From a virus: a stretch of 32,164 nt of DNA. This document shows, piece by piece, positions 9,308 through 31,254 of this stretch. The notes beneath the pieces are model-generated. The model saw only the letters and a program-made list of their open reading frames with translations, had not been told where the DNA came from and ran no database searches. The stretch's first letter is position 1. Each line of letters starts with the position of its first letter. The stretch spans positions 1 through 32,164 of the IMG/VR virus record IMGVR_UViG_3300020167_000005; one strand, written 5' to 3'. The translations under genes were made by a program, and so were the position numbers.

Positions 9308-10462
9308 ATGAGTACCACCATTGCAGAAACATCGCCAGCCGAAACCAAATCAAGTCCGTTTAGTGCGGCACTAGAAAATGCGTTTAACGGAGATAACGCT
9401 TTGCCTGTTGAAACCGAAAGCACATCACAGGAACCAGCTAAGGTTGCAAAAGAAAGCTCCAAGTCAGTTCCTGACGCTTTGTTCAAGAGGGCTGACTCTG
9501 ATACCCGATCCGTTGAAGAGTCGCTGCCAGAAAAAACTGCTGCGGATGAAATTGCCGAACCGCCAAAACTGGACGCCAAGGGCAAAGCTGGCTGGGAGGC
9601 ATTGAAGAAAACGGCGCGAGAAGAATCCACCAAACGGGCGGAACTAGAACGGCAAATTGAAGATTGGAAATCCAAGGGCCGCGATCCTGAGACACTGGAA
9701 AAACACCTTTCTGAGCGCGACAAACGAATTGCTGACTACGAAGAGCGTGTTGCTCGCGTTGATCTGGAGCTTACAGACAGCTTTAAACGAGACATCATTG
9801 AACCGCGCCAAAAGGAAATTGGTAAAGCCAAGGCACTTGCGGATGAGATGGAAGTCAATCCAGACGAAATGAGTTCTGCTCTTAACTTGAGGGGCAAGGC
9901 TCGTTCTAATGCGCTTCGTGAAATGGGAATTGATCCTGATGGCGGTCGCATTAGCCGCATCATGGATAACCTGGATGAAATCCATGACCGCGCCGAGTAT
10001 GATCGTGCTAATGCCAAGCAAGCTCTGGAATATCGCATTGAACGCGAGCGCATGGATAAGCTGTCCGAGCATGGCGAGTTTGTAAAAACCAAGTTCTTGC
10101 AATTTGATGACATGACCAAACGGATGCGATCAAAACTGGAAATCTTAAATCAAGTAGATGGGCATGAGGATTGGAACACCAAGTCAAGGGGGGTAGTAGA
10201 AAGCGCACGCGCCTACATTCAGGACAATCCTTATGCCGATGTGGAAGCGGTAATTGAGGCGAAATCCATGCCAGTATATCGCGAACTGTTTCTGGAAACC
10301 CGCGAGCGTGAGGCTGCGCTGGAATCTAGGGTGGCAGAAATGGAGAAGGAGTTGAAAGCCATTCATGGACGCTCGCCTTCTCTGACGCAACGAGGACAGG
10401 CGGCAACCACTGGCAATTCAAAACCGTTTAGCTCTATGATCGCGGAGGCGTTTGGACAATGA
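9308..10462 (+). CDS. Capsid assembly scaffolding-like protein
   Basis: The 384-residue product is highly charged and almost entirely helical. It has a Ser/Thr/Glu-rich disordered N-terminus, long coiled-coil stretches (residues ~95-180 and 330-350) and few aromatic residues. This composition, together with the position after the portal and upstream of the major capsid gene, fits an internal scaffold that guides prohead assembly and then leaves. The A-rich leader (CCAAAACAAT) has no Shine-Dalgarno sequence. Scaffolds diverge quickly, so composition and synteny are the only evidence. Normally the capsid gene would follow directly; here 5.4 kb of sugar genes intervene. Confidence 0.75.
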   Translation: MSTTIAETSPAETKSSPFSAALENAFNGDNALPVETESTSQEPAKVAKESSKSVPDALFKRADSDTRSVEESLPEKTAADEIAEPPKLDAKGKAGWEALKKTAREESTKRAELERQIEDWKSKGRDPETLEKHLSERDKRIADYEERVARVDLELTDSFKRDIIEPRQKEIGKAKALADEMEVNPDEMSSALNLRGKARSNALREMGIDPDGGRISRIMDNLDEIHDRAEYDRANAKQALEYRIERERMDKLSEHGEFVKTKFLQFDDMTKRMRSKLEILNQVDGHEDWNTKSRGVVESARAYIQDNPYADVEAVIEAKSMPVYRELFLETREREAALESRVAEMEKELKAIHGRSPSLTQRGQAATTGNSKPFSSMIAEAFGQ

Positions 10463-11376
10463 TTCTTGTCATTGCGTTCTGTCATAAAGACAAAGCAAAA
10501 GCCGTTTGTCTTGCCAACTGGATTGCAGAGTTGGGCGGCACTAACAAACATGATCTTTTGCTTGGGTATCACGAAGACACCACACCGGACCCAATTCACG
10601 AAATCCTTAAGCCCCACTTCAACCACGTTGGCGGATTTAAGATCAGCGACTCGGAGACAAACTATCCGGCAATTGCCAATATCATGTGGCATGAGTGTTT
10701 GAAAACCGTTGCAGATCAATTTAATGCACCGTGGTTCTGGATGGAGCCAGACGCCGTTCCGTTGACGCCAGATTGGCTAGACAAGATTGAGGACGAGTAT
10801 CTTAAGGCCAAGAAGCCCTTTATGCTTGATCGCGTAATTACCCCAACACGCTCACACAACAGCGGCGTTGGAGTGTATCCTGGCAGGGTGCGCGACTACA
10901 CTACGCGCTTGTGGGAGCTTTCAAACATGCCGTGGGACGTGTTTTTGGCCGAGGAGATCACGCCGTTCACACATCACACAGAATTGATTCACGACAAATT
11001 CTATCGTGTGTGGGACGACCCAGACAGCGGACCTCCAGTTTTTCCTGACGCCAATTCCCTTTCCATTATTGAACCAAGTGCCGTGTTGTTTCATCGAAAC
11101 AAGGATGGCAGTTTGATTGAACGTCTTCGCGAATCGCGGGGTAGTGTAAGTGTAACACACCCCGTTCTCATCGGCGGGGAGATTGCCGGTGCGACCCCGG
11201 CCCCCGCAACTGTTGACGTTGTCGCCATGCTTCGTCAAATTGCTGAATTGCAGGAAAAGCTAAAAGCGCAAACTGTAACAACTCCGGTTACAGATGGGAA
11301 AAGGCAGCGCACGCCAACGCAAATTCAAGCCGCAAAAGATCGCATGGCAAAAGCGCGAGCAGGGAGAAAGCCGTGA
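10459..11376 (+). CDS. Glycosyltransferase-like protein 1 (GT-A type)
   Basis: The 305-residue product starts in an ATGA overlap with the scaffold stop codon. The first ~230 residues look like a nucleotide-sugar transferase: an N-terminal beta-strand MILVIAFCHKDK, then WMEPDAVPL with an ExD motif at residues 96-98, where GT-A enzymes carry the metal-binding DxD. A later SGVGVYPG segment fits the acceptor side. The last ~80 residues are a linker, a short coiled coil and a very basic tail (KDRMAKARAGRKP), not typical of soluble glycosyltransferases and perhaps a docking segment. It is the first gene of the seven-gene sugar cassette. Donor and acceptor are unknown. Confidence 0.65.
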   Translation: MILVIAFCHKDKAKAVCLANWIAELGGTNKHDLLLGYHEDTTPDPIHEILKPHFNHVGGFKISDSETNYPAIANIMWHECLKTVADQFNAPWFWMEPDAVPLTPDWLDKIEDEYLKAKKPFMLDRVITPTRSHNSGVGVYPGRVRDYTTRLWELSNMPWDVFLAEEITPFTHHTELIHDKFYRVWDDPDSGPPVFPDANSLSIIEPSAVLFHRNKDGSLIERLRESRGSVSVTHPVLIGGEIAGATPAPATVDVVAMLRQIAELQEKLKAQTVTTPVTDGKRQRTPTQIQAAKDRMAKARAGRKP

Positions 11377-12062
11377 ACTGCGACATCTTCATTCGTAGCT
11401 ACGAAAAGGATTTCGAGTGGTTAAAATACTGCCTTCGTTCAATCCAGCGTTTTGCTACCGGATTCAGAAACGTAATTGTGGTGGTTCCAAATGGGCAAAC
11501 GCCACCAACCGGACCAGTCGAAAAAGTTTTCTATGTCCATGAAGGATGCGATGGATACATGCACCAGCAGCTAACCAAGCTGCACGCGGACTGTTTTTCC
11601 GACGCCGAGGTGTTTCTGTTTATGGACAGTGACACCATATTCACGCGGCCAATTTCGGCCCGTAATGCGTTTGATTCGTGGCTCTACACACCATACTCCA
11701 GTCTAAATGATCCAAACACGATGACATGGAGGAAGGTTGTGGAGAAAGCCATCGGAGTATTTCCAGAATACGAGTTTATGCGAAGGCATCCGTTGAGCGT
11801 CCAGAAATGGATGCTGCAAGGATTGCGCGATTTCTTTTGGCAGAAACACGGCATGAGCTTGGAAAGCTACATCATCGCGCAGCCGGGCCATGAGTTCAGC
11901 GAGTGGAATGTCATCGGAGCGTGGCTGTGGTATTTTCATCGCAGCAAGGTGCAATGGCAGAACACCGACGAAAAACTGGGAGTTCCGTTTGTCCATCAGT
12001 CGTATTCTTGGGGCGGACTCAACGATGACATTCGCAAGAACCTGGAGGAGGCGTTGGCATGA
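11373..12062 (+). CDS. Glycosyltransferase-like protein 2 (DxD motif)
   Basis: The 229-residue product starts at a GTG behind an AGGGAGAA Shine-Dalgarno and overlaps the upstream stop. The N-terminus (CDIFIRSYEKDFEWLKYCL) and the strand VIVVVPNG are typical of small GT-A transferases resembling the DUF6492 group. The metal-binding motif is DSD at residues 85-87 within FLFMDSDTIF. The C-terminal WSWGGLNDD-like end closes the fold. No membrane segment is present, so the enzyme should be cytoplasmic. Together with its neighbours it probably adds one sugar of a short glycan. Specificity cannot be read. Confidence 0.75.
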   Translation: MNCDIFIRSYEKDFEWLKYCLRSIQRFATGFRNVIVVVPNGQTPPTGPVEKVFYVHEGCDGYMHQQLTKLHADCFSDAEVFLFMDSDTIFTRPISARNAFDSWLYTPYSSLNDPNTMTWRKVVEKAIGVFPEYEFMRRHPLSVQKWMLQGLRDFFWQKHGMSLESYIIAQPGHEFSEWNVIGAWLWYFHRSKVQWQNTDEKLGVPFVHQSYSWGGLNDDIRKNLEEALA

Positions 12063-12784
12063 GCAATGTGCTTGTGCTTGTGCTGAGTTCCCGCCGCGAA
12101 CCGTGGGGCGATCTGATGGATGTCTCACTGGCAACGTGGGATGCTGACCCCCATTCTGATGTGCAGACGCTTTACTACTGCGCCCACGGCAGCAATCAGC
12201 TTATCCGTGACAATGTGCGCTATTCGGCAATGGAAGATTCTTTGGAGAATATCAGCCCCCGCACTTTGGAAGCGTTGGGATGGGCGCTGGAACTGCCGGA
12301 TTGGAAGTATTTGGCGCGACCTAACTCAAGCTGCTACGTCCATAAGGGTAATCTAGCCAAGCATTGCGACACGTTGCCGGAGACGGACGTATTGCGAGGT
12401 GCATGGGCTGGCGGTGATTCCGCCAATCCGTCTGTTGGATTTCTATGGGGAGGCGGTCAATACATCATATCGCGTGATGTTGTGGAGCGAATGGTCAAAG
12501 CTGGGGCTGGGTGGAAGAACGGACTCATGGATGACGAGGCCATAACGGACTGCGCCAAAGGAGTTGGCATTTCAATGAATCAAGGGTGCGTATTTGCTAC
12601 GATTGACGACCAGTTTGAGGGCAAGTGGTTGTGCATGTGTTACGGACTTGGTGAACCGTTTACATTTACCGACTTTGCCGACTTGAAAAAAGCCGATGGG
12701 CATTTCTTCTTTCGCGTAAAGCAAGATCATAATAGGCGGCTAGATGAGAAGCTGATGCGGGAGCTAAAGAAGAACCTGCCATGA
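12059..12784 (+). CDS. Glycosyltransferase-like protein 3 (GT31/Fringe-like)
   Basis: The 241-residue product begins in an ATGA overlap behind a strong GGAGGAGG site. Residues 87-98 (RPNSSCYVHKGN) resemble the R-T-N-x-S-S-F region of galactosyltransferase-like phage enzymes. Residues 131-142 (GGGQYIISRDVV) match the glycine-rich S-R-D motif of GT31-type enzymes. The acidic MDDEAI near residue 157 fits the downstream catalytic E/DD. All three landmarks are in the expected order. No signal peptide or membrane segment is present. The sugar donor is unknown. Confidence 0.6.
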   Translation: MSNVLVLVLSSRREPWGDLMDVSLATWDADPHSDVQTLYYCAHGSNQLIRDNVRYSAMEDSLENISPRTLEALGWALELPDWKYLARPNSSCYVHKGNLAKHCDTLPETDVLRGAWAGGDSANPSVGFLWGGGQYIISRDVVERMVKAGAGWKNGLMDDEAITDCAKGVGISMNQGCVFATIDDQFEGKWLCMCYGLGEPFTFTDFADLKKADGHFFFRVKQDHNRRLDEKLMRELKKNLP

Positions 12785-13539
12785 TCTACACCTTTGACAC
12801 CAAGCGGGCGCAACTGCGGGATGGATTCTATCAGACCGGCAGCGGGACGCGTTGTGTGTTGATTGTCGGTTCCTGCCGGACAATGGCGTTCTTAAACTAT
12901 CTTGCAGCTTGGAATGAGATAAGCGGAAACGGTTTTACGATTCGCTATATCAACCCGTTTGACTGGCACTGGAACGCAGCAGACGAACTGGTGGACTTAG
13001 AAAAGGCAATTGATGCTCTAGAAATTAACAGCGGAATCCTTGGTGTAATAGGCAACACCGAGATATTCATCCACGAACACTACGGAAACTACGGGATGTT
13101 CAATACGTCGAGAGACGCTGCAAAGAATATCTATCAGTTCGGAATGAACGCGAACACGGACATTGGTATTCCAAACTTTCACGATCACTTCATTCTCTAC
13201 AACGATTTTGCGGCGTTCGGTGAAGTGCCAGAGGATTGGAAAGAGCGTGGGTTAGCGGCAGTCGATAAGTTCTGTGACCTCTGCGCCAAGACCAGTTTTC
13301 CAGATATGGCTGAATACTTCCGAAACAACTGGCAAAACATGCGCTTGTTCTGGACTCCAAACCATACCAGCGGGGCGTTTACACTTTACCTGTTTCGCAG
13401 GATGAATGAAGTGTTCCTGCATCTTCCACTAGACAATGATTTCTGGCAGCGGATTGGTGGTGACGATATGTTCCGCGATCCACATACTCCCGTTCATCAA
13501 AAGGACATCGAAACATACAAACTTACATGGAATCACTAG
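12781..13539 (+). CDS. WcbI-like polysaccharide biosynthesis protein (putative)
   Basis: The 252-residue product has an N-terminal strand ending in VLIVGSCRTMAFL, with GSCRT at residues 30-34. WcbI-type capsule proteins carry a similar Cys/Ser-containing loop after the first strand of an SGNH-like fold. A late HTSGAF and a DPHTPVH segment could supply the histidine of such a site. WcbI proteins are believed to act as acyl- or acetyltransferases in capsule synthesis. The match is by motif and context, not firm homology. It overlaps genes on both sides in the cassette (4 bases upstream, 13 downstream). Confidence 0.5.
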   Translation: MIYTFDTKRAQLRDGFYQTGSGTRCVLIVGSCRTMAFLNYLAAWNEISGNGFTIRYINPFDWHWNAADELVDLEKAIDALEINSGILGVIGNTEIFIHEHYGNYGMFNTSRDAAKNIYQFGMNANTDIGIPNFHDHFILYNDFAAFGEVPEDWKERGLAAVDKFCDLCAKTSFPDMAEYFRNNWQNMRLFWTPNHTSGAFTLYLFRRMNEVFLHLPLDNDFWQRIGGDDMFRDPHTPVHQKDIETYKLTWNH

Positions 13540-14081
13540 CCAACATATTTACGCGCATTGGACATTTTGGAAGCGATGCTGGTCATAATGACAAAGGATC
13601 AACTCATTCCTACATTGAATCATACGAGCGTTTGTTTTCACCGTATCGGGAATTTGCCGACGTTCTAGAAATTGGACTGGCATCAGGAAAGTCATTGGAC
13701 TTGTGGGGTGAATACTTCGGACCAAAAAGCACTATAATCGGTGTGGACATTTCTGTGGTGTTTGACACGTCGCGATTCCAACCACCGCGATTTAATGTGA
13801 TCCAGGCAGATGCAACAAGCCAAGCGGCTATTGTTGCGCTTGGTCAAGCAAAGTTTGACATTATCATTGATGACGGAAGCCACATGCAAGCCGACCAAGA
13901 GGCGGCGTTTCGCCTGCTATCACCGCGAGTCAAGGCGGGTGGTCTTTACATTATTGAAGACATCCTCAGTCCCGAATCTAGCGTCCCATCGCTCCGCGCT
14001 CTTCATCCAAACTGCGAGGTAATTGACCTGCGTGGAGTGAAGGGACGGTTTGATGACATGCTGTTGGTTTATCGTTTCTAA
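13527..14081 (+). CDS. Class I SAM-dependent methyltransferase, probably sugar O-methyltransferase
   Basis: The 184-residue product has motif I VLEIGLASGKSL, motif II IIGVDIS and the post-I acidic FDIIIDDGSH, then IIEDIL. This order and the N-terminal GSDAGHNDKGSTHSYIESY pattern resemble sugar O-methyltransferases of the MycE/TylF/CmcI type, where the DDGSH acid-rich loop binds a metal. The overlap with the upstream stop is 13 bases. It is shorter than MycE-type enzymes (around 240-400 residues), so it may be a minimal catalytic domain. Expected role: methylation of a sugar hydroxyl on the glycan made by the cassette. Confidence 0.75.
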   Translation: MESLANIFTRIGHFGSDAGHNDKGSTHSYIESYERLFSPYREFADVLEIGLASGKSLDLWGEYFGPKSTIIGVDISVVFDTSRFQPPRFNVIQADATSQAAIVALGQAKFDIIIDDGSHMQADQEAAFRLLSPRVKAGGLYIIEDILSPESSVPSLRALHPNCEVIDLRGVKGRFDDMLLVYRF

Positions 14082-14083
14082 TT

Positions 14084-14761
14084 ATGAAAATGCTCGTCAC
14101 AGGAAAAAGCGGGTTTGTAGGTCGTCACGTTGTCCGCGAGTTGGAAAGCCGTGATGTTGAGATTGTGCCAGACTTCACTGACCGTCCCGAGGCGGTGATC
14201 CATCTCGGCTGGGGGCATCTTCCTAATTACGAATCATATCTACACTCGGCGCAAGTCCAGTGGCATCACGGCTTCCTAAGCGCAGTCATCGGAGATGGCA
14301 TCACAAACATTACCGCAGCGGGAAGCTGTTTGGAGTTGGTGGACGATCCTCCGGTTTATGGACTCGCCAAGATTAGCGTCCGCGATGGTTTGTTGTGGCG
14401 GCTTCCTACGGCCAAGTGGGTTCGGTTTTGGAATGTCTATGGGCCAGGGCAACGCGAAGAATGTTTGCTGCCGAGTCTTCGGCGCGCAATGGAGCGTGGA
14501 GACGAATCTTTCCAAGTCATTGACGGAATGCGCGATTTTATACCCGTTCAAGATGCGGCAAAGCGGCTGGTGGATATTGCGCTGCAAGAGGAGGAGTCTG
14601 GCGTATTCGATTGCGGAAGCGGCACCGCCGTTCCAGTGATTGATTTCTGCCGCAAATTCACGGGTGATAGCACGATCCGACTAGAAACAGGATACCCAAT
14701 GCCGTCCTACGAACCAAAAGTGTTTTCAATCCGCAACCGCAATGAACACGGCGATAGATAG
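14084..14761 (+). CDS. NAD(P)-dependent sugar-nucleotide epimerase/dehydratase family (SDR)
   Basis: The 225-residue product has the Rossmann motif TGKSGFVG (residues 6-13), a S81 candidate and the catalytic pair Y92-x3-K96 in VYGLAK. A WNVYGPGQR segment follows, which is typical of GalE/RmlD-like extended SDRs. The F-I-P-V-x-D-A segment (DFIPVQDAA) also fits. It is short for the family (about 300 residues), and several helices of the NAD-binding half look reduced. Probable role: epimerisation, reduction or dehydration of an NDP-sugar donor for the neighbouring transferases. No nucleotidyltransferase is present, so the NDP-sugar must come from the host. Confidence 0.8.
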   Translation: MKMLVTGKSGFVGRHVVRELESRDVEIVPDFTDRPEAVIHLGWGHLPNYESYLHSAQVQWHHGFLSAVIGDGITNITAAGSCLELVDDPPVYGLAKISVRDGLLWRLPTAKWVRFWNVYGPGQREECLLPSLRRAMERGDESFQVIDGMRDFIPVQDAAKRLVDIALQEEESGVFDCGSGTAVPVIDFCRKFTGDSTIRLETGYPMPSYEPKVFSIRNRNEHGDR

Positions 14762-15899
14762 ATGTTTGTGCTGCGAGGGGGCGCTGGTTCCTCTGGTAAA
14801 CTTTGGGCAGATGCCGTTGGTAAATACCTACGGTGTGACGGAAAAGTTTCCGTTGGCGGTCAACCGCTGCAAGGTCTGCTGCCATTTGCAGTTGTCGGAG
14901 GCGGTTGATCCGCTGGTGCTTTACAGTGATTACGCCTACTGTTCTGGAACTGGAAAAACCGCATTGGACTTCTTTTCAGGGTTTGCTCGCACGGCGTTGT
15001 CCTACGTTCCAAATGCCAAGCGGGTTCTGGACATTGCCAGCAATGATGGGAGCCAGTTGGATGCGTTTAAGTTGCTCGGGCTTTCAACGTCGGGAGTTGA
15101 CCCGGCAGAAAATCTGGCAGGAATTGCCGCAGCCAAAGGGCATCTCATTCGCATTTCGCTTTTTGAAGATGTTAAATTCCAGTCAAACGAGACATTTGAC
15201 ATCATCACCGCGCAGAATGTGGTGGCGCACACGCACCGGCCTGTGGAGTTCCTGTCCCGATGCGCGGACATTATGCACAAGGAGTCGCGGCTATTCGTCG
15301 CAACCTCGCAGGCAAACATGGTGGTGTTGGGCGAGTGCGACACGATCTACCACGAACACGTCAGCTACTTCAATGCGGGGTCCATGATGCGCCTGGCCGA
15401 ACGCGCTGGGCTGCGACTGCTGGACATTGTGATGAACGACATCCACGGCACCAGCTACGTTTTTGTGCTTGGAATCGCTGGCGAGCCGTCCGTCCGTGTA
15501 GCGCAACGGATGCAATGGGAGAATGCGGTGGGGCTGACTAGACCGGGTCTTTACAGATGGTGGAAAACCCATATTGCAGAGAAGATCGAGCGGCTGGGCA
15601 GAACGATTGACGGATTCAAGAAGGATGGATTCCTCACTGTTGGCTGCGGAGCGGCGGCAAAGGGCATCTCCATGCTGAACATGGCAGGGGCAAAATTGGA
15701 CGTGTTGGCCGACAACACGCCGACAAAACATTACAAGATGACTAGCGAAATGCTGATTATGCCGTTTGACGAGATTGCCAATCTAAAAGAACCAAAGGTG
15801 TTGTTCGTGGTGCTGGCGTGGAATGTCGGCGTGGAGATTCGCCGCAACGTGGAGAAATTGCGAAGCAGGGCGGAAGATGTGTTTATTGAGATTCGCTAA
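14742..15899 (+). CDS. Sugar C-methyltransferase (NovU/TylC3/TcaB9-like)
   Basis: All three parts of this 385-residue family are visible. First is an N-terminal zinc module with C8-x2-C11 and C43-x2-C46. Next is a Rossmann methyltransferase core with motif I VLDIASNDGSQL (residues 95-106) and TAQNVVAHTH. Then come the diagnostic YHEHVSYF (E205, H206) and a C-terminal second Rossmann-like domain with GCGAAAKG. In TcaB9-type enzymes this protein adds a methyl group to C3 of a 4-keto dTDP-sugar, using the Glu/His pair as catalytic residues. The start overlaps the SDR gene by 20 bases. It ends the cassette and strongly implies a branched-chain, methylated deoxysugar. Confidence 0.9.
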   Translation: MNTAIDRCLCCEGALVPLVNFGQMPLVNTYGVTEKFPLAVNRCKVCCHLQLSEAVDPLVLYSDYAYCSGTGKTALDFFSGFARTALSYVPNAKRVLDIASNDGSQLDAFKLLGLSTSGVDPAENLAGIAAAKGHLIRISLFEDVKFQSNETFDIITAQNVVAHTHRPVEFLSRCADIMHKESRLFVATSQANMVVLGECDTIYHEHVSYFNAGSMMRLAERAGLRLLDIVMNDIHGTSYVFVLGIAGEPSVRVAQRMQWENAVGLTRPGLYRWWKTHIAEKIERLGRTIDGFKKDGFLTVGCGAAAKGISMLNMAGAKLDVLADNTPTKHYKMTSEMLIMPFDEIANLKEPKVLFVVLAWNVGVEIRRNVEKLRSRAEDVFIEIR

Positions 15900-16094: not shown

Positions 16095-17345
16095 ATGGCC
16101 TGTCCCAATCCGTTTGCAGCAATTCAAATCGCTACCGAGCATCTCGGCAGCGAAATCTATGGTATCCCCACTCCGGCGACACCTTACTTTAACTTCGTCG
16201 AACGCGGCGTGTTTCCTCGAAACATGGGCGTTACGATGTCAACCTTCATCGCTGGCCGCGTCGAGCCTGACAGCAAATCTGCTGGCTGGTCTGCCGTTAC
16301 TCTGGACAGCGCGGGTTCCGGTTCTACCGGCCCGTCCATTACTGGCGGCATCTGCGCGGACAGCTTCACTTCTGTCCCTGTTGGATTCGATACGTTGCAA
16401 TACTCGCCCCGCAAGCTCCAGCTTCAGGGACCGTCTATTTGCCGCGATACGCTTAGTTTCGCGCATCAGCCCACGAAGTTCATCCAGCAGCACTACATCC
16501 CGTCTCTCGCCCACTATGTGAAGCGCAAGATCGATTTGGAGTTCCGTGACCAGATCATCAAGTTTTCGAACAAGATGTCGCTGGCGGCTGGTGGATTCTC
16601 CAACGTCGTTACCGCATCTACCAATCCGACCATCAAGCCAACTTCGCAGTTGAACTGGTCGTGGCTGGACGGCGTGGCTGTTCGCCTTATTGGCGACGGT
16701 GCTGCCAACTCAGACGGCGAAGAAATTGAGATGGGGCCAGACGGTCCTGTGTTCCCGGCTTTCATCGGCCTGGAGGCTCTCAATCGCCTGTTCCAGAACG
16801 GTTCGGCTTCTTCGCCCAACGCCTTCCGGCAGGACTTCCAGTATGCCGACTCGGGCAAAGGCGCAATGGCTCAGACTCTGAAATCCATTGGCGCTTCCCG
16901 GCAGATCAAAAACTTCCGGTTTGCTCCGGTTGTGAATCCTCCGCGCTTTACCTACAACAACTCTATTCTTGTTGAAGTTGAGCAGTTTGAGTTTGTCTCT
17001 GCAACCCACGGCCAGAAGTCCACCGAAACCAGCGCGTATCAGAACGCCGAATACGAAGCCATCGTCATTCCGCATCGTCGCCAGTTCAAGGCGGACATCC
17101 TGACTCCTGACTACGCCGGGCTTGATTATGAGCCGTCTATGTGGACGGGCGATTGGAAGTTCATCACTGGCGGCGAGCGTATCGTATCCAACAACGTGTG
17201 CTTTGATCCTATGCACAAGTGGGGCGCGCACTTCGCCGAGTTCATCTACGCACCGGAACCGATCCACACCAACTACGGCTGGGTCCTTTTTTACAAGCGG
17301 TGCAGCGGCGATCAATCCATCACGGCCTGTACTTCCGGCCTCTAA
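16095..17345 (+). CDS. Major capsid protein
   Basis: The 416-residue product sits downstream of portal and scaffold with its own promoter, as expected for the most abundant virion protein. It is rich in Phe, Tyr, Asn and Pro, with no membrane segment. It shows alternating strand and helix regions compatible with an HK97-like fold, including a long basic helix region (KFIQQHYIPSLAHYVKRKID) and a late Y-A-G-L-D-Y-E-P-S-M-W loop. The frame is open back to 16023, but the ATG at 16095 is the first methionine and follows an untranslated leader of about 160 bases. No Shine-Dalgarno sequence is present before it. Assignment is by synteny, length and composition. Confidence 0.82.
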   Translation: MACPNPFAAIQIATEHLGSEIYGIPTPATPYFNFVERGVFPRNMGVTMSTFIAGRVEPDSKSAGWSAVTLDSAGSGSTGPSITGGICADSFTSVPVGFDTLQYSPRKLQLQGPSICRDTLSFAHQPTKFIQQHYIPSLAHYVKRKIDLEFRDQIIKFSNKMSLAAGGFSNVVTASTNPTIKPTSQLNWSWLDGVAVRLIGDGAANSDGEEIEMGPDGPVFPAFIGLEALNRLFQNGSASSPNAFRQDFQYADSGKGAMAQTLKSIGASRQIKNFRFAPVVNPPRFTYNNSILVEVEQFEFVSATHGQKSTETSAYQNAEYEAIVIPHRRQFKADILTPDYAGLDYEPSMWTGDWKFITGGERIVSNNVCFDPMHKWGAHFAEFIYAPEPIHTNYGWVLFYKRCSGDQSITACTSGL

Positions 17346-17349
17346 AGTC

Positions 17350-18042
17350 CTACGCATCCGCCGCGCCCTTCACTGGGCGCGGCGGCTTGCGCCCTTTCAT
17401 CAGATTCTCGCTCATCCACAACGGCTGCAAATTTGTAAAATGACAAGCCTGCTCAAGCTGCTCCGGGTCTGTAAGATCAAAAAATTCCAGCGGCTTGATA
17501 TGGTCGAGATGCCAGCCTCGAAAACTCCAGTTAGCCCAAGTCATGCCGGGCTTGAAGAGGGATTCGATATGAGCCTTCAATTCATCAATAGTGCATCCAA
17601 GCATGGCAATGGCGGTCTTGTGACGGCACTCGCGTCTAATTGCGCGAGCAAGGCGACTGCGGACGCGTACGGCCAGCTTCACTTGCGGATTCGCGTGGTA
17701 TTTCCTGCGCTTGTTAGCCGCAACTCGCGCCATATTTTTAGACCTCCAAGCATTACAGGTTTGCTTTACGCTCTCTTTGTTGGAATGGTAGTGGTCATGC
17801 GCCGCCGCCTTGCACTTCTCTTTGTTTGCAGCGTAGTAGGCACGCGCCCGCGCTCTGGCTTTTTCAGCATTTTCAGGAACAGCAAAGTAGGCCGCGTTGT
17901 AAGCGGTTCGATATTCTGGATTTGCGGCTTTCCACGCAGCATCTTTCGCCCTCATTTTTTTAGGTTCGCGCAGCCTTCTCAATCTTTCGCGCTCGCATTT
18001 CTTCAATCTCTGTTCTTCTGCGGTGAATCGTTTTATAGCCAT
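17350..18042 (-). CDS. Free-standing HNH homing endonuclease
   Basis: This is the only clear reverse-strand gene. From the ATG at 18042 it encodes 230 residues; a longer start at 18078 adds 12 hydrophobic residues and is less likely. The N-terminal two thirds is extremely basic and Ala-rich and contains repeats of the A-x-N-x-E-x-x-K type found in DNA-binding linkers. The C-terminus holds the catalytic HNH core: HLDHIKPL, then CHFTNLQPLW and SENLMKG. It is inserted tail-to-tail against the capsid gene (four bases between stops) and divergent from the fibre gene. This is typical of mobile endonucleases that target conserved head genes. It probably cleaves intron- or gene-less alleles of co-infecting phages. 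Confidence 0.92.
   Translation of the reverse strand: MAIKRFTAEEQRLKKCERERLRRLREPKKMRAKDAAWKAANPEYRTAYNAAYFAVPENAEKARARARAYYAANKEKCKAAAHDHYHSNKESVKQTCNAWRSKNMARVAANKRRKYHANPQVKLAVRVRSRLARAIRRECRHKTAIAMLGCTIDELKAHIESLFKPGMTWANWSFRGWHLDHIKPLEFFDLTDPEQLEQACHFTNLQPLWMSENLMKGRKPPRPVKGAADA
17358..17385 (+). terminator. Perfect 11-bp GC hairpin after the capsid gene
   Basis: CCGCCGCGCCC (17358-17368) and GGGCGCGGCGG (17375-17385) are perfectly complementary around the loop TTCACT. The stem starts 13 bases after the capsid stop and lies inside the 3' end of the convergent HNH gene. It can therefore act on transcripts from both sides. No T-tract follows, so termination would need help. Protection of the capsid mRNA 3' end is an equally good reading. 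Confidence 0.6.
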
Positions 18043-18047
18043 TCCAA

Positions 18048-18075
18048 AGCATAATTCAAACGCTGCCAATATCAA
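18048..18075 (-). promoter_or_regulatory. Possible reverse promoter giving a leaderless HNH mRNA
   Basis: Read on the - strand, TTGATA (18075-18070) and TATGCT (18053-18048) are separated by 16 bases. The expected transcript start falls on or beside the HNH ATG at 18042, so the mRNA would be leaderless. Both boxes match only partly and the region is AT-richer than its surroundings, so this may be chance. Confidence 0.25.
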
Positions 18076-18082
18076 CAACTAA

Positions 18083-26692: not shown

Positions 26693-27652
26693 ATGACAAC
26701 CACCGAACAAAAAGAATACGACCACCTTGCGAACCTATGGCACGCCACCGAGCCGATGACGGCAGTGCAAACTAAACGCATGGACGACCTGCACGCTCTG
26801 ACACTTAAGCCTGACCCAATACACATCATTAGCCTAGGTGCTGGCGTGCAGAGCAGCACGATGGCGCTGATGGCAGCCCATGGAGAGATCACGCCGCACC
26901 CTACAGCAGCGGTTTTTGCTGACACACAGGCAGAACCAGCAAGCGTCATGCGCTGGCTAGACGTTCTGGAAGGGCTGATAAACGCCGCTCCGTTTCCTTT
27001 TCCTATTGTGCGCGTAACTCGCGGGAGTTTAACAGAAGCTAGTCTCAAAATACACAATAGAAAAACCCGATCAGGAACACGGGTGCAGACAATCATCCCG
27101 GCGTTCACGCTGAACAAGAAGGACGGAACCAGAGGTATTCTTGGAAGGTCATGCACGGCTGATTTCAAGGTTGCAATGCTGTTGCGCGAGTCTCGAAAGA
27201 TAGCTGGAATCAAGCGTGGGCAAAAGACTATAGGAGTTATACAGTGGATTGGAATCTCTCTAGACGAAGCGCACCGTATGAAGCCAAGCAGGGATAAATG
27301 GGTCGAACACAGATGGCCGCTTATTGACTTAGGAATGAAGCGCCACGACTGCCTCCGATGGATGGAGCGGAATGGTTATCCTAAACCGCCGCGATCTGCG
27401 TGTGTTTACTGCCCATTTCACTCAGACGCAGAATGGACACGACTAAAGAATGAAGAGCCAGAGGAGTTTGCAGGTGCGATAGCATTTGAACGGAAGCTAC
27501 AAGCAGCGCATGAACACGACGATACTAGACGCGGCGTGCCGTATCTGCACAACTCTTGCATACCGCTAGACAAGGTTGATCTGTCTACCGACATCGAACG
27601 AGGCCAAGGAGAGCTTTTCGGCAACGATTGCACCGGACTGTGCGGAGTATGA
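26693..27652 (+). CDS. PP-loop ATPase / PAPS-reductase-like protein
   Basis: The 319-residue product has the PP-loop SLGAGVQSS (residues 47-55), FADTQAEP, the RSCTADFK motif with C153, a C236-x2-C239 pair in SACVYCPFHS and a terminal C-x3-C (CTGLC). It belongs to the N-type ATP pyrophosphatase superfamily, related to PAPS reductases and tRNA thiolation enzymes. Phage members are usually labelled PAPS reductases, but sulfate reduction is not proven for them. The extra Cys pairs suggest a metal or Fe-S site. Possible roles include nucleic-acid thiolation or other modification. The start is preceded by a weak ribosome site. Confidence 0.8.
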   Translation: MTTTEQKEYDHLANLWHATEPMTAVQTKRMDDLHALTLKPDPIHIISLGAGVQSSTMALMAAHGEITPHPTAAVFADTQAEPASVMRWLDVLEGLINAAPFPFPIVRVTRGSLTEASLKIHNRKTRSGTRVQTIIPAFTLNKKDGTRGILGRSCTADFKVAMLLRESRKIAGIKRGQKTIGVIQWIGISLDEAHRMKPSRDKWVEHRWPLIDLGMKRHDCLRWMERNGYPKPPRSACVYCPFHSDAEWTRLKNEEPEEFAGAIAFERKLQAAHEHDDTRRGVPYLHNSCIPLDKVDLSTDIERGQGELFGNDCTGLCGV

Positions 27653-28072: not shown

Positions 28073-28717
28073 ATGAGCCTATTTATTCGAGTCCAAACAT
28101 CGTTCTGGACACACCGGAAAACCATGAGGCTACGGGCCAGAATTGGCGACTCTGCCTTTTGGCTTCCTCCTCGCCTTTGGAGCTACGCAGCAGAGAATCA
28201 GCCAGACGGAAACTTTGCAGACTATTCCGCGCAGGAATTGGCGATGCTTTTAGGATATTCGGATGATGCTCAAGCAATGCTTGAAGCATTACAAGAGCTT
28301 GGATTCATGGACGGAATGGAAATTCACGACTGGCATGACCACAACGCCTATCACCAGACTTTTGCTGACCGGGCTAAAAAAGCAGCGGAGGCCCGTTGGA
28401 GGGGAAAAGACAAGACAAGACAAGACAAGAAAGGAGACAAGCAATGCTTAAATTCTACTCAAGCAATGCTTCAAGCATCCGGCCAGAGTATTTCCAAAGC
28501 AAAAGGAACCATCCAAGACCTTCGTTCATTCTGCGTAGAGCTTGGCCTTCCCGCGTCTGACGGCGACTCCTGCTTCTACAAGTGGGAGGGGAACGGATGG
28601 AAAAACGGAACCGCTGCAATCAAAGATTGGCAGATGACGATTCGATCATGGAAAAGCGCGGGCTATCTTCCAAGTCAACGCAACGAGAAACCAAAACCTA
28701 AAGCCTCAGTCAGATGA
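28073..28717 (+). CDS. Replication initiation/helicase-loader-like protein
   Basis: The 214-residue product precedes the DnaB gene (ATGA overlap). Its N-terminal part has an all-helical, DNA-binding-like character (LWSYAAENQPDGNFADYSAQ). The middle contains IHDWHDHNAYHQTF and a basic RAKKAAEARWRGK, typical of phage replisome-organiser proteins. The C-terminal part carries FYKWEGNGWKNGTAAIKDW, which resembles DnaT/phage replication proteins that recruit the helicase. A low-complexity KDKTRQDKKGDK segment encoded by AAGAC repeats links the parts. It probably opens the origin or loads DnaB. Confidence 0.7.
   Translation: MSLFIRVQTSFWTHRKTMRLRARIGDSAFWLPPRLWSYAAENQPDGNFADYSAQELAMLLGYSDDAQAMLEALQELGFMDGMEIHDWHDHNAYHQTFADRAKKAAEARWRGKDKTRQDKKGDKQCLNSTQAMLQASGQSISKAKGTIQDLRSFCVELGLPASDGDSCFYKWEGNGWKNGTAAIKDWQMTIRSWKSAGYLPSQRNEKPKPKASVR
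28407..28426 (+). repeat. Four perfect AAGAC pentamers
   Basis: AAGAC is repeated four times inside the initiator-like gene and is followed by AAGAA. Because five is not a multiple of three, gain or loss of one unit would shift the reading frame after codon ~113 and remove the C-terminal helicase-contact half. Four units is short, so slippage may be infrequent. Confidence 0.6.
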
Positions 28718-29967
28718 CACCATCATTCCTCCGCCACGCCGAAGAATCCCAGTGTGCTGCTCTCAGCGCGCTCCGCAACAATCTGACCGAAGCCGGGGCG
28801 CTGCTCTCGACCTCGGGAGTGACCGAAGCCCATTTCTACGATCATCACCGGGAGGTTTTCACCGCGCTGATGGAGATGTGGCAGCAGGCGAAGCCCTTCA
28901 ATTTCCGCTCGCTGGCGATCCGACTACGCGAGATGGGGTCAACCATTGAGGAAACCGCGTTGCAAACCATCTTCTCTGAATCCTCACCGATGCACGCGCT
29001 TCCAGCCACCATCGGCGCGCTGATGCGTTGCGAGGCGTCCAGGCGCCTCTACAAACTCGGGCAGCGGCTTTCAGGCAGCGCGTTCGACCTCACCGCTGAC
29101 ATTGAAGAGAATCTTGCCAACGCTCGCGCTGAACTGGACGCCGTGAGCGTGGAGCCGGATCGCGAGGAAACCAGCCTGGCCTATTTTCTCAAGCAGGCGG
29201 TGCTGGAATTGGAGGGTCACTCGGCCAGTCCCGACGTGATCGAATTTGGCCTCGGCCTGGACCCGGTAGCGGGACCGTTCATGAGGGGTGATCTGATCGT
29301 GATAGCAGCCGAAACCAAGGGAGGAAAATCGGCTATTGCAGGCAACATCGTGGAAAACGTCGCTGCCGGCGGCAATCGGTGCTTGGTGTTCTCGCTCGAG
29401 ATGACGGGAGTGCAGACTGCCGAACGGATGTTGGCAAGTCAGGCGCGCGTGGACATCCGCTCGATGAAGATGCGGATGCGGATGCGCCACGAAATGCAGT
29501 TTACATCGCAGGATAGCTCCGAGTTGGCGCGCATGGAGTCTTGTGTGGCGCGGATGCGGGACTGGCCTGTGGACATCATCACGAAAAAAGGCAGTGTCGC
29601 CGCGATGTCCGCCGAGATCATCCGCCGAAAGCCTGCGCTCGCTGTGGTGGATTACGCACAGCTCACAGAGGGAATCCGCAAAGGAAACGACAACCGGGAG
29701 CGCGAGGTTGCCAGCATTTCCTCGACGCTGAAACGCGCTGCCGGGTTCGCAAACTGCGCGGTGATCCTGCTCTCACAGCTAAACGAGGACGGAAAACTGC
29801 GCGAAAGCCGCGCACTCGGTCAGGACGCAAACTGTGTGCTTTTCTTGGAGGGCGACGAAAAGGACAAGCGCACTGTGCGCGTCGGTGCTGCGCGATCCGC
29901 GCCGTCTGGTGTGGAGATCGAACTCGACTGGCGTCCGCAGTTCACCCGCTTTTCCGCAAATGACTGA
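28714..29967 (+). CDS. dnaB: DnaB-type replicative helicase
   Basis: The 417-residue product has the N-terminal DnaB helical domain (residues ~1-110) and a RecA-like core. Walker A is AETKGGKS (199-206), lacking the first Gly of the classical motif. ARGMGKT-like SLEM (227-230) corresponds to motif H1a, Walker B is LAVVDYAQL (309-317) and ILLSQLNEDG is motif H3. The hexamer unwinds DNA at phage forks and recruits primase. It is shorter than bacterial DnaB (about 470), and no primase is seen in the window. The gene overlaps the initiator-like gene by four bases. Confidence 0.95.
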   Translation: MTPSFLRHAEESQCAALSALRNNLTEAGALLSTSGVTEAHFYDHHREVFTALMEMWQQAKPFNFRSLAIRLREMGSTIEETALQTIFSESSPMHALPATIGALMRCEASRRLYKLGQRLSGSAFDLTADIEENLANARAELDAVSVEPDREETSLAYFLKQAVLELEGHSASPDVIEFGLGLDPVAGPFMRGDLIVIAAETKGGKSAIAGNIVENVAAGGNRCLVFSLEMTGVQTAERMLASQARVDIRSMKMRMRMRHEMQFTSQDSSELARMESCVARMRDWPVDIITKKGSVAAMSAEIIRRKPALAVVDYAQLTEGIRKGNDNREREVASISSTLKRAAGFANCAVILLSQLNEDGKLRESRALGQDANCVLFLEGDEKDKRTVRVGAARSAPSGVEIELDWRPQFTRFSAND

Positions 29968-30178
29968 CGCCGAGCTTGCCGAGGAAATGCACACGCTCAC
30001 CAATCAATTTGCGGATGCAGTGCGCGCTGCTCTGCCAGACGGAGTGAGTTCCGAAGAGTGGGAGGGAGCGTTCCGGTGGGCGCTGGAGAAGCCTGACAGT
30101 GTTGAGGTGCGCGCCTACGCCGAGAAGGCTCTCGCTGCGGCTACGATGGCAGCGGATAGGGAGGGTATGGGGAGATGA
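29960..30178 (+). CDS. Small acidic hypothetical protein
   Basis: The 72-residue product starts at ATG 29960, eight bases before the end of the helicase gene; the longer frame upstream overlaps the helicase and is unlikely. It is acidic, helical and Ala/Glu-rich (MTDAELAEEMHTLTNQFADA) with no motif. Its position between helicase and methylase suggests an accessory role only by context. Confidence 0.55.
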   Translation: MTDAELAEEMHTLTNQFADAVRAALPDGVSSEEWEGAFRWALEKPDSVEVRAYAEKALAAATMAADREGMGR

Positions 30179-31254
30179 GTAAATTCCACCTTGATCTTTT
30201 TTCAGGCATCGGAGGTTTTTGCGTAGCCGCGCAAGCCTGCGGTTATACAACCATCGGCTTTTGCGAAAGAGAACCATATGCACAACAAATCCTCAAAGAA
30301 CGGTTTGGCGCGGTTCTGGCCGACGCCAGCACCACGCGACCACCACGCTCAGGGTGCGAATCACAATCAAGCCGCACACAGCAGCAGCCTTGCAACGGTG
30401 ATTCAAAAGCCCCGCGACTCCATGATGACATCTTCACCCTCAACGGAGCCGACTACGCCGGAGTCGACCTGCTCACAGGTGGATTTCCTTGCCAACCTTT
30501 CAGTGTCGCCGGGAAGCGACTCGGCAAGGCAGATAACCGAGCGATCTGGCCGGAAATGCTGCGAGTTATTAGGGAAGCCAAGCCTACTTGGATCATTGGT
30601 GAGAACGTTGCTGGAATCGTCACGATGGAACTCGACAATATCCTTTCTGACTTGGAAAGCCTCGGCTACTCCGCGTGGCCGCTTGTTATTCCGGCTTGTG
30701 CCGTCGATGCCAGACACCGACGCGACCGAGTTTGGATCATCGCAAGAAAGTCTCTGGTCGACACCACAAGCGCGGGATTTCCGCAGCGGGGACGATCCGA
30801 ATGGGATTCGAGCGACGAGAAAACGGGAACAGGGATGGTCGCAGAACCTCAACGATCAAGTCAGGATGTGGCCCACGCCGCAAGCGAACAAGACGACGGA
30901 AAGCGGGGACATCGTGAACGCGGACGGGACGGAATGGGACGGCATGAGCAAGCCGCACGGCGCCGCAACGGGCAGGCCGATAACAACAGCACTGGCGGAC
31001 AAGGTGAAGATGTGGCCCACGCCGACAGCGCAGGACGGCGAGAACTGCGCGGGGCCGAGCCAATGGAATCTAGCAACAATCCCGCTAAATGTTGCTGCGC
31101 ATGGCCCGACGAAGCAGCTTGGTTCGCTGAATCCGGCATGGGTCGAGTGGCTCATGGGATACCCCATCGGTCACACCGCCTGCGCGGGTTGGGAAACGCG
31201 ATCGTCCCGCAAGTCGCCGAAGAAATCATCCGCGCAATCACCAACCTGATATGA
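30175..31254 (+). CDS. C5-cytosine DNA methyltransferase (Dcm type)
   Basis: The 359-residue product has all core motifs in order: motif I FSGIGGF (9-15), motif IV GGFPCQPFS with catalytic C106, motif VI GENV (142-145), motif VIII RHRRDRVWI (180-188) and motif IX/X RLRGLGNAIVPQ near the C-terminus. It methylates cytosine at C5 in a specific site, probably protecting phage DNA from restriction. The target-recognition part (~191-300) is Arg/Gly/Asp-rich and repetitive (DVAHA at 30865 and 31009), and a ~35-residue insertion lies at 50-83. Both unusual regions are exactly where a second frame (30278-31249) encodes its own motifs. Confidence 0.93.
   Translation: MSKFHLDLFSGIGGFCVAAQACGYTTIGFCEREPYAQQILKERFGAVLADASTTRPPRSGCESQSSRTQQQPCNGDSKAPRLHDDIFTLNGADYAGVDLLTGGFPCQPFSVAGKRLGKADNRAIWPEMLRVIREAKPTWIIGENVAGIVTMELDNILSDLESLGYSAWPLVIPACAVDARHRRDRVWIIARKSLVDTTSAGFPQRGRSEWDSSDEKTGTGMVAEPQRSSQDVAHAASEQDDGKRGHRERGRDGMGRHEQAARRRNGQADNNSTGGQGEDVAHADSAGRRELRGAEPMESSNNPAKCCCAWPDEAAWFAESGMGRVAHGIPHRSHRLRGLGNAIVPQVAEEIIRAITNLI
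30278..31249 (+). CDS. Nested second-frame protein with four WPTP modules
   Basis: This 323-codon frame lies entirely inside the methylase gene, shifted by one base. Its ATG follows GAAAGAGAACCAT, a weak ribosome site. Residues 105-145 hold LESSRWNSTISFLTWKAS and TPRGRLLFRLVPSMP. Four W-(P/S)-T-P-x-A modules follow the pattern at residues 14-17, 160-163, 198-201 and 246-249, mostly with D/Q-D-G afterwards. The end carries SLNPAWVEWLMGYPIGHT. I recall this combined pattern from many phage proteins annotated beside or as cytosine methyltransferases, so chance seems unlikely. Function unknown; a methylase accessory or specificity factor is one possibility. It could also be a non-translated shadow kept by constraint on the methylase. 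Confidence 0.55.
   Translation: MHNKSSKNGLARFWPTPAPRDHHAQGANHNQAAHSSSLATVIQKPRDSMMTSSPSTEPTTPESTCSQVDFLANLSVSPGSDSARQITERSGRKCCELLGKPSLLGSLVRTLLESSRWNSTISFLTWKASATPRGRLLFRLVPSMPDTDATEFGSSQESLWSTPQARDFRSGDDPNGIRATRKREQGWSQNLNDQVRMWPTPQANKTTESGDIVNADGTEWDGMSKPHGAATGRPITTALADKVKMWPTPTAQDGENCAGPSQWNLATIPLNVAAHGPTKQLGSLNPAWVEWLMGYPIGHTACAGWETRSSRKSPKKSSAQSPT
30865..30880 (+). repeat. 16-bp repeat inside the dual-frame locus, copy 1
   Basis: GATGTGGCCCACGCCG here is repeated at 31009-31024, 144 bases (48 codons) away and in the same phase. It encodes DVAHA in the methylase frame and MWPTP in the nested frame. Confidence 0.8.
31009..31024 (+). repeat. 16-bp repeat inside the dual-frame locus, copy 2
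   Basis: Identical to 30865-30880; see that entry. The in-phase spacing preserves both frames, which points to duplication of a dual-coding unit. Confidence 0.8.

Follow-up and report, generated by a model that had tools for sequence, protein, structure and literature searches.

Does a phage cytosine methylase gene encode a second long protein in the same bases, and if so, what could this protein do for the methylase? The question is raised by a locus in a stretch of virus DNA of 32,164 nt (IMG/VR record IMGVR_UViG_3300020167_000005, positions 1 to 32,164; hereafter the window), for which an initial annotation had described a stop-free frame of 323 codons (30278-31249) inside the methylase gene and had proposed that selection acts on both frames. 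The frame is present, in phase +1 relative to the methylase ORF (30175..31254, plus strand, 359 aa). The product of this ORF is an orphan C5-cytosine DNA methylase, as indicated by its profile matches (PF00145, E 6e-37; TIGR00675, E 4e-31), by the invariant residues in the alignment and by the motifs of the class: motif I (~30193), PCQ of motif IV (30487-30495), ENV of motif VI (30601-30609), motif VIII and GNA of motif X (31192-31200). A recognisable motif IX and a globular target-recognition region (TRD) were not found in the methylase frame, and hhalign aligned it with ordinary C5 enzymes over motifs I-VIII only.

The nested ORF (30278..31249, plus strand, 323 aa) matched the HMM of PHROG 1008 with an E of 2e-37 (profile positions 24-286 of 329) and has an open extension of 17 codons 5' of its ATG (30227..30277). 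Its elements, all on the plus strand, are: a first WPTP module (30314..30412), which in the alignments falls into a part of the methylase N-terminal to motif IV (residues ~49-85 of the methylase) that is missing in many relatives; a conserved core (30428..30763, nested residues ~51-162), which overlaps methylase motifs IV-VIII and contains a predicted beta-hairpin (residues 121-145, 30638-30712); the modules WSTPQA, WPTPQA and WPTPTA (30752..31120), which correspond to the TRD of the methylase and are under more constraint in the nested frame; and a GSLNPAWVEWLMGYPIGHTAC motif (31121..31183), which overlaps ESGMGRVAHGIPHRSH of the methylase and in which V289, L292, G294 and P286 are conserved at 96-100%, versus 18-30% after synonymous shuffles. 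The four places at which a motif had been noted in either reading were all recovered (methylase/nested: VLADAST/FWPTPAP at ~30314, SLVDTTS/LWSTPQA at 30752, DVAHAAS/MWPTPQA at 30865 and DVAHADS/MWPTPTA at 31009), as was the 16-bp direct repeat GATGTGGCCCACGCCG, the copies of which (30865..30880 and 31009..31024) stand at the start of modules 3 and 4, 144 nt or 48 codons apart, where 0 are expected by chance. The ending ascribed to the nested protein, SLNPAWVEWLMG, is present at residues 283-294, but it lies 29 residues short of the C-terminus and is not the very end. The extra WPTP module at 30314-30412, found in the window's clade, has the same +1 phase as the TRD modules, as if a module could be copied to a different place in the gene.

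Searches of Pfam, NCBIfam and the PDB gave no match for the nested family. The AlphaFold model of the nested protein (pLDDT ~60) had only a beta-hairpin that was confident and gave no fold match, no MTase fold or domain was detected, and no biochemical activity is readable from the predicted structure. The matches in a viral structure library are apparently relatives of the family itself, some of them labelled methyltransferase.

Several other genes of the window were recorded alongside: i) a run of sugar-type genes (10459-15899) with putative glycosyltransferases, two SAM methyltransferases (one of them sugar C-methyltransferase-like) and an NAD epimerase; ii) a minus-strand ORF (17350-18078) with an HNH-like LDHIKPLEF...NLQPLW and no Pfam match, which overlaps a plus-strand ORF of 310 aa (17122-18054); and iii) an ORF (26693-27652) that resembles PAPS-reductase/DndC-type proteins (SLGAGVQSSTMALMA), again with no Pfam match. 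An annotated phosphoadenosine phosphosulfate reductase gene is also found near the methylase in phage C72C1 (L084).

Taken alone, the open +1 frame of the window is only moderately unusual: when the synonymous codons of the methylase were permuted with the methylase protein kept (a null that ignores codon-pair context), the shuffled genes had 2.85 +1 stops on average and 2% were fully open. The second frame was therefore judged on its relatives, and not on the window's open frame by itself. A first collection comprised 248 distinct loci that were selected by the nested protein from viral contigs, named phages and bacterial genomes (249 if the window, which recurs as L082, is counted a second time); because these had been picked by the nested protein, a second collection of 166 loci was selected by methylase similarity only. 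The nested frame was found at exactly +1 inside the methylase ORF in 248/248 and at +1 in 166/166 of these loci, respectively, and at +1 inside the ORF in 46 of the 49 loci of a third methylase subtype, all sets being best-match samples and not a census, with viral contigs that are metagenomic. Within the nested ORF, a count of +1 stops would be circular as regards the observed value, and stops were therefore counted between the methylase anchors PCQ and GNA (~235 codons). The +1 frame was without a stop in 141 of the 156 methylase-selected loci, the +2 frame averaging 12.4 stops, a result that is decisive for the second frame.

The 19 ordinary C5 methylases that were taken as controls from host genomes of such loci had 4-40 +1 stops and a nested-family score of at most 27 bits, versus 120-346 bits for the phage-type methylase genes in the same host genomes. 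Standalone homologues of the nested protein, which had been expected, were not encountered among the nested-selected, methylase-selected and genome-contig loci. In a draw of 149 genomes from one phylum, nested matches occurred in 2, both of them strong, and one of these was the already known copy in G001. Of 322 nonredundant loci, 14 had a split methylase and 6 an extra stop in the nested frame. Examples of a methylase split by an in-frame stop, with the nested frame open, are L002:2736-3848 (on the same contig as L254) and L062:1639-2766. At L492:1754-2683 an N-terminal methylase part and a C-terminal nested part (TNPEWIEWLMGFPIGWTEL) share a single frame, as though an indel had joined them.

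The proposal that dual coding is under selection in both frames is backed by these stop counts and by three further lines of evidence: synonymous-shuffle nulls, fourfold-site rates and diagnostic codon choice. With a profile derived only from clade A, clade-B loci reached 84 bits and their shuffles 8, with 66 of 67 loci beating every shuffle; the window scored 70.6 bits against the clade-B profile (shuffle mean -1.2, maximum 9.3). With a profile of the same clade the shuffles still score ~81 bits, and some of the nested-frame conservation is therefore forced by the methylase. The rates at fourfold sites, derived from 103 disjoint pairs, separate the two readings. Methylase fourfold sites changed at a rate of 0.449 before and 0.371 after the overlap, against 0.195 (core), 0.142 (TRD) and 0.147 (C-terminus) inside it, which is the predicted depression of the synonymous rate, by a factor of 2-3. 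At the fourfold sites of the +1 frame, where changes alter the methylase, the rate was 0.132 in the catalytic core and 0.339 in the TRD, so that constraint acts on both readings in the core but mainly on the nested one in the TRD. Changes in the TRD that alter the methylase yet are silent in the nested frame are frequent, so that the earlier suggestion of a TRD shaped by its nested partner holds in a strong form (0.339 at nested versus 0.142 at methylase fourfold sites).

The choice of methylase codons points the same way. In the RVA[DHN]G motif of the methylase, Val is encoded by GTG in 88/89 cases (GTG makes up 30% of all Val codons), and the codon for D/H/N has T in its third position (NAT) in 133/133 (~40% overall). 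Methylase codons are chosen such that nested residues are kept: V289 is retained in 96% versus 18% when forced by the methylase only, L140 in 99% versus 24% and W126 in 99% versus 33%, and G294, L292 and P286 are also among the near-invariant nested residues that lie far above methylase forcing. We consider it almost certain, from these comparative data, that the same DNA encodes the methylase and a second protein.

The codon-position pattern and the distribution of Shine-Dalgarno sites would fit translation of the nested frame. In the relatives, 51% of the nested-frame ATGs upstream of PCQ are preceded by a Shine-Dalgarno match, versus 15% of the control ATGs in other frames, and a common form has AAGGAG 7 nt upstream of a start codon that is positioned 16 codons before PCQ. 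No Shine-Dalgarno match was found at any candidate nested start in the window, including the ATG at 30278; this ATG is conserved in the relatives L002, L005, L008 and L009.

A maximum-likelihood tree parted 51 methylases with a nested frame from the 19 ordinary C5 methylases by a single branch (support 100/97), and the third subtype, which carries the same +1 family and includes Mycobacterium phage SG4, fell on the nested side (support 100). Probably the overprinting happened a single time, at the root of the phage-type C5 methylase branch, and the gene was kept since; a single origin without loss in the sampled loci is the simplest reading of the tree, the long branches of which advise caution. 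Among the hosts given in the records are Firmicutes, Proteobacteria, Bacteroidetes, Acidobacteria and Actinobacteria. The data suggest an old protein family that has usually been missed or mislabelled as methylase.

The existing annotation of the family is mixed. The nested protein of the window and all 88 aligned relatives match phrog_1008 (PHROGs 26627, 27243 and 31772 belong here as well), the label of which, 'DNA methyltransferase', describes the other frame and not the nested family. The same arrangement with the same families was annotated as two overlapping CDS in Paenibacillus phage Diva (gp49 and gp50, the 'g49 internal gene') and in Escherichia phage K1G (ORF31, a C-specific methylase, and ORF30, a 'putative Mte8-like protein'). 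The initial statement that the two motif sets occur in separately annotated phage proteins is thus correct in that the nested proteins have a CDS of their own, but Diva gp50 and K1G ORF30 are the same overlapping frame and not standalone genes. Both cases were annotated individually, and many relatives have only one of the frames annotated. In Salmonella phage W5_chr3 (L453:1195-2124) this is the nested frame, called 'Mte8-like', and the true methylase ORF is unannotated. The BASEL phages Bas71, Bas72, Bas74 and Bas77, which infect laboratory E. coli K-12, have the two overlapping genes as well. The name 'Mte8' is present only as a gene name (PMC5582158), and the internal gene is absent from the main-text discussion of the Paenibacillus phage papers. 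Single pairs have been annotated before, and we found no account in the open-access literature of the pairs as one conserved and selected overlapping-gene family; an earlier notice may exist elsewhere.

What the second protein does may be approached from its N-terminus, which often carries QLTLF, QMDLF, QKDLF, QTIDLF or a similar, beta-clamp-like sequence. The bacterial clamp-binding consensus is QL(S/D)LF or QLxLF (PMC9690074, PMC4549789). QLxLF was present in 54 of 310 nested N-terminal regions, versus 0.95 expected from synonymous shuffles (~57 times above), and was found nowhere else in the nested protein nor in the methylase frame. A broader clamp pattern was present in 108 of the 310 regions, or about a third of the nested proteins, versus 4.05 expected (~27 times above); the pattern set is post hoc, the motif having been noticed first and tested afterwards, and the excess is large nonetheless. 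The nested copy of the window has QVDFL only and no canonical clamp motif, which is also missing from most of clade B. In the lineages that bear the motif, the nested protein rather probably binds the clamp. Replication genes are found near the methylase/nested pair: a DnaB-type helicase just upstream in the window (28714-29967), and a helicase or polymerase in Diva and K1G.

We propose that two proteins are made from one stretch of DNA and that the nested one serves the methylase as a partner or targeting subunit which is often clamp-tethered, a proposal that, taken as a whole, we regard as evenly balanced. The nested +1 frame would be translated on its own from an internal start, and its product would act together with the methylase, the target choice or positioning of which would depend on it. 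In the lineages concerned, the QLTLF/QMDLF-type N-terminus would tether the methylase to the replication clamp, and new phage DNA would be methylated at the replication fork, as PCNA does for Dnmt1; the clamp motif suggests such targeting to the fork. The nested protein is tentatively taken as a partner, with slightly less than even confidence, because it was never found apart from the methylase, because this methylase branch was never found without the nested frame and because the TRD-coding DNA is kept for the nested reading. Target choice or positioning would probably run via the nested protein, since the TRD DNA is kept mainly for the nested reading and the methylase reading drifts almost freely; the enzyme must still be directed, which makes the nested protein the obvious candidate for directing it. 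A far-reaching version, in which the DNA that coded for the TRD was taken over by a separately translated, often clamp-tethered protein that provides target choice or placement at the fork, is rather unlikely to be correct.

The strict co-occurrence of the nested protein with the methylase could reflect shared DNA and not shared function. The chief alternative, possible if doubtful, is that dual coding is real and that the nested protein serves something unrelated to methylation, for example counter-defence or the seizing of the host sliding clamp and replisome, the gene staying where it arose since it cannot leave the methylase gene unless copied whole. Phage proteins that target bacterial clamps are known, and the clamp-like motif, the start sites that the nested frame has of its own and the failure to detect an MTase fold or domain would all be in line with this; a useful independent gene is nevertheless expected to move, whereas no copy was found outside the methylase gene in any set, and the nested conservation concentrates in the TRD-coding DNA. 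It is less plausible, and in our estimate improbable, that the methylase is split and that the nested protein supplies in trans the TRD and motif IX part lost from the methylase frame, on a principle resembling that of two-subunit C5 enzymes such as M.AquI; LNPxWVEWLMGYPxGWT would then derive from motif IX (LTxRExARIQGFPDxW) by a shift of frame. When the profile of the nested family is placed on that of ordinary C5 methylases, the best position falls exactly on motif IX, in 166 of 197 nested frames no other register matches motif IX as well as WLMG does, and the restriction of the methylase alignment to motifs I-VIII would follow, but the placement is not significant (hhalign E 0.11, probability 0.6%), the median motif score is 4.5 versus 35-55 for a true motif IX, and the remainder of the nested protein, which lies over motifs IV-VIII, cannot be a TRD. 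The reading that a second protein does not exist, and that the conservation of the methylase, a codon bias or an RNA element produced the open +1 frame with its similarity as a by-product, was rejected on the synonymous shuffles and the ordinary C5 controls and is extremely improbable: the ~81 bits of same-clade shuffles do show +1 similarity to be partly methylase-forced, but shuffles otherwise lose the nested family and introduce stops, ordinary C5 methylases contain +1 stops and lack a nested score, the slowing of methylase fourfold sites is confined to the overlap, the codon-position pattern and Shine-Dalgarno sites fit translation, and an RNA structure would be needed that explains +1 codon choice across three methylase subtypes.

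Overlapping genes on one strand that are both long and conserved have rarely been established in bacteria and their phages. The nested gene spans three methylase subtypes in phages or prophages whose hosts range from Firmicutes to Proteobacteria, Bacteroidetes and Actinobacteria, with a clear trade of constraint between the frames, and provides hundreds of natural replicates for the study of overprinting; it also offers a connection, open to test, from an orphan phage methylase to the sliding clamp of the host. For annotation it means that the label 'DNA methyltransferase' has been given to a PHROG that stands for another protein, and that in many phage records the annotated CDS is in the wrong frame or one of the two is missing. 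If the proposed partnership is true, the same bases encode both an enzyme and the factor that targets it.

Three known systems offer comparison. M.AquI is a two-subunit C5 methylase, the subunits of which are encoded consecutively with a very short overlap. The likeness is that the enzyme may be active only together with a second product of the same gene region; the nested protein described here differs in lying almost wholly inside another frame, and its resemblance to motif IX is not significant. The closest case found in the open-access literature is the ShiLan domain, an out-of-frame HNH endonuclease that is a mobile homing insertion in the methylase of some mycobacteriophages (PMC11855218). 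There too, a protein is hidden out of frame in a phage methylase and the methylase frame is left open, but this is a mobile insert of another kind: the nested overlap covers the catalytic core of the methylase itself, in all members examined, and no match to an HNH or other nuclease was found for the nested frame in Pfam or the PDB. Finally, as with Dnmt1 and PCNA (PMC9690074), a clamp motif could direct a cytosine methylase to newly synthesised DNA, with the difference that the motif is here carried, in about one third of the relatives only, by a separate protein that is encoded by the same DNA.
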